NCBI GenBank assembly: GCA_016873395.1
Contig: VGXG01000006.1
Span: 1-64,000, forward strand
Direction: 5' to 3'
From: Nitrospira sp.
Lineage (GTDB): Bacteria > Nitrospirota > Nitrospiria > Nitrospirales > Nitrospiraceae
DNA: 64,000 bases
Shown: positions 13,199-61,844 of the stretch, piece after piece
Numbering within the stretch: the first letter of the stretch is position 1
Layout of the letters: every line of letters starts with the position of its first letter
Position numbers and translations under genes: made by a program
The notes under the pieces: model-generated
The model's input: the letters and a program-made list of their open reading frames with translations, nothing else
The model's database searches: none
Told to the model about the DNA's origin: nothing

Positions 13199-13252
13199 TT
13201 GACAGAGGAGAAAACAGGGGCTTATGATACCCTCCCAGCTTGGTTGATATTT

Positions 13253-13397
13253 ACTGGCGGCAAAGTAACTATCCGCCGCGATTTGATCGAACGCGGCGGT
13301 TCAAGCAAGCTTGAAGAATTTAAGCCTACTGGTGGCAAAAAGCTTCTCCCGGCACGTATGATCGAAGTGCCGGGTTCTAGCAAGCTCGGTATGGAGG
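13253..13397 (+). repeat. R7 hairpin/SD cassette, two tandem units
   Basis: Unit 1 (13253-13312) reads ACTGGCGGCAAAGTAAC, then stem CCGCCGCG / CGCGGCGG around TTTGATCGAA, then TTCAAGCAAGCTTG. Unit 2 (13328-13397) reads ACTGGTGGCAAAAAGCTTC, stem CCCGGCAC / GTGCCGGG around GTATGATCGAA, then TCTAGCAAGCTCGGTATGGAGG in pieces. The final GGAGG is the ribosome site for the rhodanese gene. Other copies: 21738-21867, 40805-40874, 61686-61816. Confidence 0.8.
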
Positions 13398-13405
13398 CCG
13401 GATAT

Positions 13406-13729
13406 ATGGGCTTTACAATTACCCCGCAAGAGTTAAAAAATCGCCTGGACAAGGGCGAGAAGATATTCCTACTGGATGTCCGGGAACCCTGGGAACATTC
13501 CCTGGCGAAGATCAACGGGTCGGTCCTGATCCCGCTGGGCACCATTCCCCAGTCACTCAACCAACTCGACCGCGAGGCAGAAATTGTGGCCTACTGCCAC
13601 CATGGGATGCGGAGCGGCGACGCGGCCGGTTTTCTGCTCCAGCAGGGATTCAAGAATGTGAAAAACCTCGTGGGCGGCATCGACGCCTGGTCCCTCCAAG
13701 TCGATCCTACGGTCCCGCGATACCGCTGA
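13406..13729 (+). CDS. single-domain rhodanese (sulfurtransferase)
   Basis: 107 residues. Core motifs: EKIFLLDVREPWEH and the active-site loop C64-H-H-G-M-R (in VAYCHHGMRSGDAA), followed by VKNLVGGIDAWS. Known activity: transfer of sulfane sulfur to thiophilic acceptors. The reading frame extends upstream to 13199, but that part encodes only the two R7 hairpin units, so I start at ATG 13406, 8 nt after GGAGG (13393-13397). ATG 13391 overlaps the SD itself and is less likely. Confidence 0.85.
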   Translation: MGFTITPQELKNRLDKGEKIFLLDVREPWEHSLAKINGSVLIPLGTIPQSLNQLDREAEIVAYCHHGMRSGDAAGFLLQQGFKNVKNLVGGIDAWSLQVDPTVPRYR

Positions 13730-21737: not shown

Positions 21738-21867
21738 CCTCCATACCAAGCTTGCTAGAGAGTGGTCAGTTTTCAGTTATCGGTCTTCAGTCAGGAAACT
21801 GAGAACCGAAAACTGAGGGCTGATAACTTCACCTTTACCGTGAGCGGAGAGTTACTTTGCCTCCAGT
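21738..21867 (-). repeat. R7 cassette in zapB-zapA spacer, interrupted by an R1 hairpin
   Basis: On the minus strand it begins ACTGGAGGCAAAGTAACTC, whose first part encodes the last residues L-E-A-K and TAA stop of zapB, and ends TAGCAAGCTTGGTATGGAGG, the zapA ribosome site. The hairpin loop expected in the middle is replaced by an R1 element at 21764-21834. Confidence 0.7.
21764..21834. repeat. R1-family TCAGTTTTCAG hairpin
   Basis: GTCAGTTTTCAGTTATCGGT faces ACTGAGAACCGAAAACTGAG, an imperfect stem-loop lying inside the R7 cassette between zapB and zapA. Confidence 0.65.
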
Positions 21868-22112
21868 GAAATCTCCTTTGATTCCTCGATACATTCGAGG
21901 GAATCCACTTCACCCAAGACCTTTTCGATCCGTATCCTGATGCCGGCCCGCTCCTCCTTCCATCGCTGGCTCAGCTCATCCTGCCTCACCAGCCGTTCCC
22001 GCGCCGCTCGCAGCTCTTCTTGCAGCGTCGCGTTGGCGCGTTTGAGCTGCTGCACCATCTCAACCAGCCCCCGCACGCGCGTCTCGAGGGCTTCCATCTT
22101 ATCCAGGGCCAT
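21852..22112 (-). CDS. zapB: ZapB-like coiled-coil division protein
   Basis: 86 residues, almost wholly coiled coil: MEALETRVRGLVEMVQQLKR then NATLQEELRAARERL. Size, composition and position upstream of zapA fit ZapB, which links ZapA-FtsZ to the chromosome terminus region in known systems. GGAGAG sits 7 nt before the ATG. The last four codons and stop are shared with the start of the R7 repeat. Confidence 0.75.
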   Translation of the reverse strand: MALDKMEALETRVRGLVEMVQQLKRANATLQEELRAARERLVRQDELSQRWKEERAGIRIRIEKVLGEVDSLECIEESKEISLEAK

Positions 22113-24591: not shown

Positions 24592-24656
24592 GTTGAGTTG
24601 TCAGTTCTCAGTTGCAACAGAACACTGATGACTGAGCACTGAAAACTGAGAACTCG
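24592..24656. repeat. R1-family GTTGTCAGTTCTCAG hairpin
   Basis: GAGTTGTCAGTTCTCAGTTG faces ACTGAGCACTGAAAACTGAG in the divergent spacer between the transglycosylase and rlmN. Confidence 0.6.
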
Positions 24657-31650: not shown

Positions 31651-31723
31651 GTAAACAGTTCTCAGTTTACGGTTATCAGTTTCTGAATTTTCTAGAACTG
31701 AAAACTGACAACTGATGACTGAC
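31651..31723. repeat. R1 repeat, near-identical to 40961-41033
   Basis: Begins GTAAACAGTTCTCAGTTTAC and ends CAACTGATGACTGAC. It matches the copy at 40961-41033 in 72 of 73 positions (A at 31687 versus G at 40997). It folds on CAGTTTTC/GAAAACTG-type arms around TTTTCTAGAA. Confidence 0.85.
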
Positions 31724-38199: not shown

Positions 38200-38305
38200 G
38201 TTATCAGTTTCTCAGTTTTCAGTTTTCAGTTCTCAGTCTTCAATCCTCAGGTCTCCCGCAATCCCTCTGTGATTCTGCGAACTGAACACTGACAACTGAC
38301 GACTT
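38200..38305. repeat. R1-family TCAGTTTTCAGTTTTCAG hairpin
   Basis: TTATCAGTTTCTCAGTTTTC, AGTTCTCAGTCTTCAATCCT words face GAACTGAACACTGACAACTG. Fills the spacer before the ABC exporter. Confidence 0.6.
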
Positions 38306-40804: not shown

Positions 40805-40874
40805 CCTCCATACCAAGCTTGCTTGAGCCGCCACGTTCGATCAACTCGTGGCGGATCGTTACTTTGCCTCCAGT
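40805..40874 (-). repeat. R7 cassette, single complete unit
   Basis: On the minus strand: ACTGGAGGCAAAGTAACGAT, stem CCGCCACG / CGTGGCGG around AGTTGATCGAA, then CTCAAGCAAGCTTGG and TATGGAGG. The last GGAGG is the ribosome site of the gene starting at 40799. Closest copy to unit 1 at 13253. Confidence 0.85.
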
Positions 40875-40960
40875 ACATATCCTGGATCAATTAGGCCAAT
40901 CGGGCGTCATTGTAAGGAAACGGCCAGTCCAAAGCAACGCTGAACGATGAACGACTCAGA

Positions 40961-41033
40961 GTAAACAGTTCTCAGTTTACGGTTATCAGTTTCTGAGTTT
41001 TCTAGAACTGAAAACTGACAACTGATGACTGAC
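40961..41033. repeat. R1 repeat, near-identical to 31651-31723
   Basis: Same 73-nt sequence as 31651-31723 with one substitution. It lies between the exported protein gene and maf, followed by R6-type CATTCATCGTTCAGC words to about 41070. Confidence 0.85.
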
Positions 41034-61685: not shown

Positions 61686-61816
61686 CCTCCATCCCAACCT
61701 TCGTTGAACCGCCTGCTTCATACCAAGCTTCGTTTCAACCCGGCACTTCGATCACATGTGCCGGGAGAAGCTTTTTGCCTATGAATTTGCAGGCGGAGAG
61801 GTTTTTTGCCGCCAGT
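61686..61816 (-). repeat. R7 cassette with a second R7 unit nested in it
   Basis: Outer unit on the minus strand: CACTGGCGGCAAAAAACCTC, stem CCGCCTG / CAGGCGG, GTTCAACGAAGGTTGGGATG and GAGG. Inner unit (about 61720-61779), lying in the outer loop: AGGCAAAAAGCTTCTCCCGG, stem CCCGGCAC / GTGCCGGG around ATGTGATCGAA, then GAAACGAAGCTTGGTATG. The outer GGAGG serves the decarboxylase gene. Confidence 0.75.
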
Positions 61817-61844
61817 GCGCTTAGATTCCTTCGTGGTTCGTCAT

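Follow-up and report, generated by a model that had tools for sequence, protein, structure and literature searches.

Repeat units before four genes of the window

The window, the whole 64-kb stretch of Nitrospiraceae DNA analyzed here, carries copies of a short hairpin-bearing repeat, R7, in front of genes for a rhodanese, ZapA, an exported protein, and PvlArgDC (pdaD). A preliminary description of this DNA had located copies at four places (13253, 21738, 40805, and 61686), each with a GGAGG 4 to 8 nt from a start codon (at 13406, 21731, 40799, and 61681, respectively), and had reported that the stems differ in sequence yet stay complementary. All four copies are present at these coordinates and with this spacing, and the quoted stems and their pairing are correct. 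The proposed unit layout needs correction, however: the copy at 13253 is a tandem of two, that at 21738 lacks the TGATCGAA stem, and that at 61686 is nested. The sequence CAAGCTTGGTATGGAGG, allowing up to 3 mismatches, has five matches in the window versus 0.10 expected from shuffles, and the 5' motif TACTGGNGGCAAA is present at each window unit. A covariance model built from 17 R7 units matches 40805-40875 (-), 13327-13397 (+), 13252-13317 (+), 61715-61783 (-), and 21738-21868 (-). The features are as follows.

13252-13317, plus strand: tandem unit 1 (E 2e-16), 5' motif TACTGGCGGCAAA
13273-13280 and 13292-13299, plus strand: stem of tandem unit 1, CCGCCGCG and CGCGGCGG, loop ATTTGATCGAA; the tail TTCAAGCAAGCTTGA runs into the next unit
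13327-13392, plus strand: tandem unit 2, array-terminal (E 3.8e-18), stem CCCGGCAC/GTGCCGGG; its end is taken as ...GGTAT, a junction deduced from the empty sites and those at tRNA genes
13393-13397, plus strand: GGAGG, the native Shine-Dalgarno sequence (SD) for rhodanese (ATG 13406); the corresponding sequence in orthologues that lack the unit is AATGGAGGGACATC-ATG and GATGGAGGCCGCGCAT-ATG
21743-21868, minus strand: unit with the usual ends and another internal hairpin (ACTGAAAACTGA type); flanks AAAGGA on the left and GGAGG on the right
21738-21742, minus strand: native SD GGAGG of zapA (TTG 21731); AAGGAGGTGG in most hairpin-free relatives
40810-40875, minus strand: single unit before the exported-protein gene (E 9.4e-20), stem CCGCCACG/CGTGGCGG
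40805-40809, minus strand: GGAGG, the SD for the exported protein (ATG 40799); relatives in which the site is empty show ATCCAGGGAGGCTTG-TATG
61691-61817, minus strand: outer unit, CACTGGCGGCAAAAAACCTCTCCGCCTG ... CAGGCGGTTCAACGAAGGTTGGGAT, whose loop contains a second, nested unit
61715-61783, minus strand: inner nested unit (E 6.3e-11), stem CCCGGCAC/GTGCCGGG, ending GGTAT/GAAG
61686-61690, minus strand: native SD GGAGG of pdaD (ATG 61681); in 26 orthologues the unit is missing, and nearly all of them show a purine-rich SD at this place

Between its usual 5' and 3' ends, the copy at 21738 encloses the internal hairpin GTTATCAGCCCTCAG...ACTGAAAACTGAC. Another dispersed hairpin-like repeat, composed of ACTGAAAACTGA and TCAGTTTTCAGT units, has 13 matches in the window versus 0.13 expected. 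It lies at 24601-24649, 31697-31715, 38212-38299, and 41007-41025, as well as inside 21766-21816, where its ACTGAAAACTGA type stands in place of the inner hairpin of R7.

An R7 unit is about 66 to 75 nt long and consists, in order, of (TATTT)CACTGGNGGCAAA; GTAACTA, AAGCTTC, or AACCTC; a TCC stem, loop, and stem; TTC; a mini-hairpin; and GTAT, with the 3' end reading ...AAGCTTGGTAT-3'. A segment of 12 to 15 nt (for example, CAAAGTAACTAT) separates the TGGAGG motif from the foot of the hairpin, and at least four internal hairpin types have one 3' tail in common. The aligned units begin with CACTGG... and end with ...GGTAT and thus have no terminal inverted repeat pair, the feature expected of a MITE. 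Their 3' tag is GTAT (GTAG in a few variant copies), and no GTAG/GGAG-type tetranucleotide stands at the hairpin foot. Inverted doublets do not occur as a repeating unit of R7; the arrays are direct tandems or nested copies.

The large hairpin has 8 bp, usually closed by the loop GATCGAA, and its stem is 98.7% paired across 58 distinct aligned copies. The covariation score of this stem is 0.61 versus 0.12 when shuffled, with 100 cells altered on both sides in the 58 copies, and the signal is lost in a control in which the pairing partner was slid. The mini-hairpin occurs, for example, as CAAGC-GAA-GCTTG, CAACC-GAA-GGTTG, and CAAAC-GAA-GTTTG and covaries as well, with 381 of 460 positions complementary (shuffles: mean, 331; maximum, 347). 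Only 2 of 461 large-stem cells are G-U pairs, and the stem sequences number 12 in the source genome and 14 in relatives, largely the same set across genera. Since so few stem sequences (about 14) are shared, the double changes reflect a few subfamilies rather than many independent compensations. Together with the near absence of G-U pairs, this sharing between genera would fit a DNA hairpin with subfamilies. The preliminary description had proposed an RNA fold that is either under selection or inherited from a palindromic element; the conserved hairpin is borne out, while the scarcity of G-U pairs and of distinct stems speaks against RNA control.

Junctions with Shine-Dalgarno sequences and tRNA genes

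Searching the source genome, a 2.34-Mb Nitrospiraceae genome, and its relatives with the covariance model, as the preliminary description had proposed, revealed many further copies: 118 matches at E≤1 in the source genome and R7 in 46 of 100 relatives. The exact 3' motif AAGCNNGGTATGGAGG occurs 35 times in the source genome versus 0 for the reversed control. These genome-wide totals come from sequence searches and from stretches read around the matches.

We tabulated what follows 92 of the 3' ends in the source genome. A start codon of an open frame lies at SD distance past 71 of them, mostly 7 to 10 nt beyond TGG, under a generous scoring that admits a few array-internal ends with an upstream TTG or GTG. 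Another 8 adjoin the 3' end of a tRNA gene, and the remaining 13 are mostly array-internal or before short frames. The reported placement directly before starts stands far above background: 74% of element ends are start-proximal versus 19% of all GGAGG motifs in the window (60% versus 5% for ATG starts). Targeting of GGAGG is insufficient as the whole explanation, given these 19% (27% of GGAGG scored as intergenic, n = 22, a background underestimated by the crude longest-ORF calls used as gene starts).

At the tRNA genes, the unit abuts the 3' end with zero gap and in antisense orientation, and its TGG is complementary to the CCA that the gene encodes. The genes adjoined in the source genome are those for tRNA-Tyr, -Arg, -Pro, -Met, -Cys, -Ser, -Lys, and -Phe. 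Such copies make up about 1 in 10 in the source genome and a larger share in relatives, and identical tRNA junctions recur in G019, G004, and named relatives. The unit found in G030 and G038 stops exactly at base 1 of tRNA-Ser, GGAGGGG, where the GGAGG is no SD. The antisense orientation of the tRNA copies relative to the transcript argues for action on DNA.

The preliminary description had regarded GGAGG as the terminal part of the unit, which would thereby plug in translation initiation. Neither claim withstands comparison with orthologues. Orthologues without R7 have a purine-rich SD, usually GGAGG, at the matching place; this holds for all four genes of the window and for additional loci. 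No unit stands at the start of pdaD in any of the 26 orthologues read, or at that of the rhodanese gene in any of the three relatives read. Before zapA, 23 relatives without a hairpin read AAGGAGGTG or close to it; 6 of 29 genomes (G000, G030, G019, G007, G004, and G006) have hairpins there, mostly of different kinds, that adjoin the ancestral GGAGG or, in G006, its G-rich variant. This recurrent occupation could reflect a hot spot or a benefit. The exported-protein gene is filled in G025, with an identical insertion, and in G000 and empty in G007 and G035, and pssA is filled in G025, G035, and G000 and empty in G007. Two more genes are filled in one species and empty in others with unchanged SD distance, and L182 offers a further empty site with a native SD. 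The base before GGAGG is variable at empty sites and T at most filled ones. Because empty sites keep their SD and because of the tRNA junctions, the element is taken to end before GG, as ...GGTAT/GG, and the reported terminal SD is the host target; the same two kinds of sites rule out GGAGG as a part of the element. At L182:1700-1720, where the gene product starts MALGIYIHVPFC (hemW-like), the ...GGTATGG of R7 appears to supply the ATG start.

Insertion also affects the gene upstream. At two overlapping gene pairs, the upstream gene acquires from the 5' end of R7 (ATTTCACTGGAGGCAAAGTAA) another C-terminal tail, ISLEAK plus stop, that replaces the native overlapping stop, as at 21850-21890 (-) in the window and at L335 and L332 before pssA.

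Distribution and mobility

The distribution of R7 among the 100 relatives is patchy: some genera have many copies while neighbours have none, and families f3 and f4 lack R7. All but one of the 42 named contigs with R7 are from Nitrospirota. The exception, L126 (JAJUHM010000237.1), is labelled Aquabacterium olei and was probably misbinned from Nitrospirota. From these relatives, the source genome is taken to be a Nitrospiraceae MAG. Many units in other genera form the core of longer repeats (...GGTATGTACCTCCTCG..., ...GGTATGTACCTCCTCGG...CTGCGGCC..., and ...GGTATGGCGGGCGGGCTCGCC...) that lie neither at SDs nor at tRNA genes (L187, L189, L196-L200, L259-L264, and L312-L322); these are perhaps older or parental forms of R7.

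Presence and absence within a genus, along with tandem and nested copies, corroborate the earlier view of R7 as dispersed and mobile. The hairpin module has been swapped at one tRNA-Arg gene among three species. At pssA, G007 shows an apparently clean absence though its sister G025 and the outgroup have the insertion, which would apparently represent loss or allelic replacement. The flanks at zapA read AAAGGA, element, GGAGG versus AAGGAGG, with GGA on both sides and approximately so at other loci. This pattern, seen at several young copies, suggests a duplicated GGA, clearest at zapA, though GGA could instead be carried by R7 itself. Separately, an insertion of about 130 bp at L065:1572-1735 and at L150 (strand -) 1437-1283 lies between direct repeats of the final ~32 nt of a tRNA-Thr gene. 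An R7 unit adjoins the outer copy, and the inner sequence (GTCGCCGG..TCGGCCCTGAA..) is similar in at least two genomes; the insertion looks like another small tRNA-targeting element.

Origin and significance of R7

Taken together, these observations make it likely that R7 is a tandem, nested, and modular family of palindromic mobile elements of Nitrospiraceae whose insertion adjoins SDs and tRNA 3' ends, and that it constitutes neither an initiation cassette nor a regulon. R7 would insert in one orientation, with a GG(A/T)G-type target directly on its 3' side, which on the opposite strand places it 3' of CC. Its two main targets would be the native SD (GGAGG) and, in antisense, the encoded CCA end of tRNA genes. 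Copies would then spread in tandem and nested form, with an exchangeable hairpin module between constant ends. Insertion before an SD would spare both the SD and its spacing, leaving the downstream gene with its own initiation site, now preceded by a structured leader, while the 5' end of R7 could provide an upstream operon gene with a stop (ISLEAK*). We infer that insertion acts on DNA, probably on a single-stranded hairpin, and that position is set by target choice rather than by selection alone. Target preference alone does not obviously explain the scarcity of R7 at other intergenic GG sites, and selection may contribute. We consider it possible, though doubtful, that the integration machinery reads the CC-bearing strand of SDs and tRNA CCA ends through an enzyme outside the Y1/RAYT, DDE, and reverse-transcriptase routes, with modules swapped behind the constant 3' end.

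The reading closest to the preliminary description, a mobile 5'-UTR cassette that arrives with an SD of its own and provides the downstream gene with initiation or control, accords with the 71 of 92 ends at SD distance and with the sense orientation of the copies at protein genes. It is nevertheless improbable, since orthologues without the element already have an SD, including those of all four window genes, and the tRNA-adjoining copies are antisense and have no start codon. The genes tested downstream of R7 are unrelated and give no evidence of a regulon: they encode ClpX, chlorite dismutase, ScpB, MlaD, a radical-SAM protein resembling biotin synthase, an ammonium transporter, rhodanese, ZapA, and PvlArgDC. 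We found no conserved tie to orthologous or related genes (pdaD, 0 of 26; zapA, 6 of 29; rhodanese, 0 of 3 read), so the shared post-transcriptional control site that the preliminary description had entertained as a possibility finds no support. Equally improbable is a structured cis-regulatory RNA, such as a riboswitch or protein-binding leader, kept by selection. Its appeal lies in the conserved GATCGAA loop, the strong covariation, the recurrence of hairpins at zapA, and a pssA leader common to two genera. However, Rfam at gathering thresholds detected no regulatory RNA family in the window and seven loci (tRNAs were the only matches at the loci), and predicted folds of unit plus start surpass those of shuffles only weakly (z -0.2 to -1.9). 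The dearth of G-U pairs, the small set of stems common to several genera, the presence or absence of R7 at most orthologous genes with their unrelated products, and the tRNA copies on the wrong strand also weigh against this reading. We further rejected masking of the SD by the hairpin, as predicted folds do not consistently pair GGAGG, and a coding role as an RPE-like in-frame peptide; two frames are open across the whole unit, yet both are broken by 1-nt indels that distinguish one unit from another (AGCAAGC and AGCGAAGC). Any effects of R7 on expression may be incidental to its insertion.

Two further readings concern the mobilizing enzyme. One regards R7 as a REP/REPIN-type element of a new REP lineage moved in trans by a RAYT or IS200-605 (HUH Y1) transposase; it overlaps with the mobile-element interpretation favored here and differs only in naming the enzyme. 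Hairpins without terminal inverted repeats, a one-sided tag, a constant orientation beside a short target, the apparently clean loss in G007, and Y1 genes in 33 of 61 relatives all suit it, and yet we judge it rather unlikely. No R7 unit lies within ~1.5 kb of 20 Y1 transposase genes (PF01797), and such genes are absent from the copy-rich genomes G004, G019, and G023, leaving Y1 neither linked nor correlated with copy number. The missing foot tag and the direct tandems in place of inverted doublets point the same way. The other would have an RNA ending ...GGUAU inserted by target-primed reverse transcription that starts at a nick behind CC(A). A 3' end that stays constant while the 5' modules vary would then be accounted for, as for SINEs with a common tail. 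The single 3' tail common to at least four hairpin types and the primer-strand junction at CC, shared by SDs and tRNAs, agree with such retro-insertion. It is very unlikely all the same, because RVT_1 (PF00078) is absent from nearly all copy-rich genomes (including G000, G004, G019, G028, G030, and G038), which led us to discard reverse transcriptase as the mobilizer, and because the 5' ends of R7 are conserved too.

Among known systems, R7 comes closest in its behavior to small dispersed palindromes, of the REP/REPIN type or other, yet it lacks the defining features that were tested, namely, the foot tag, inverted doublets, and a linked RAYT. It resembles REP/REPIN elements in being short, palindromic, extragenic, of high copy number, dispersed, mobile, clustered, and free of terminal inverted repeats, while differing in the absence of the GTAG/CGTC tag, of the inverted doublet, and of a linked or co-occurring RAYT; in the consulted parts of the REP/REPIN accounts, we found no report of exact SD or tRNA CCA junctions (PMC3116915, PMC3733652). 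The BOX, RUP, and SPRITE repeats of Streptococcus pneumoniae are likewise modular dispersed repeats that insert into each other; they are judged parasitic and are enriched between convergent genes, whereas R7 lies exactly before starts and at tRNA 3' ends (PMC3049150). The nearest analogy is the yeast mitochondrial GC clusters, short mobile hairpins with no mobilizer assigned whose palindromes are merged and shuffled (PMC4478555), together with the palindromes that flank Neurospora tRNA genes (Yin 1981, as cited in PMC4478555). Both are organellar and have no relation shown to SDs, and the likeness drawn here is one of description. Small dispersed repeats (SDRs) of Nostoc are named in PMC3116915. 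We found no earlier description of repeats such as R7 in Nitrospiraceae in the open-access literature. Like R7, Nostoc SDRs are very small, structured, nested mobile repeats, but they are shorter and belong to another lineage. To our knowledge, neither an enzyme nor any specificity for SD or tRNA junctions is known for them. Most bacterial dispersed palindromes are loosely placed in intergenic DNA, and what is unusual in R7 is its junction specificity for SDs and tRNA ends.

A repeat that seems to end in GGAGG may thus owe this motif to its target. R7 adjoins the SD or the tRNA CCA with single-nucleotide precision, so that housekeeping genes such as zapA, clpX, and pssA gain structured leaders while their SD is left untouched. 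It provides a natural experiment in the influence of 5' hairpins on translation and poses a target-specificity problem for its mobilizer. If recognition of the CC-bearing strand and swapping of modules are true, they would allow repeated insertion into essential operons without destroying initiation.
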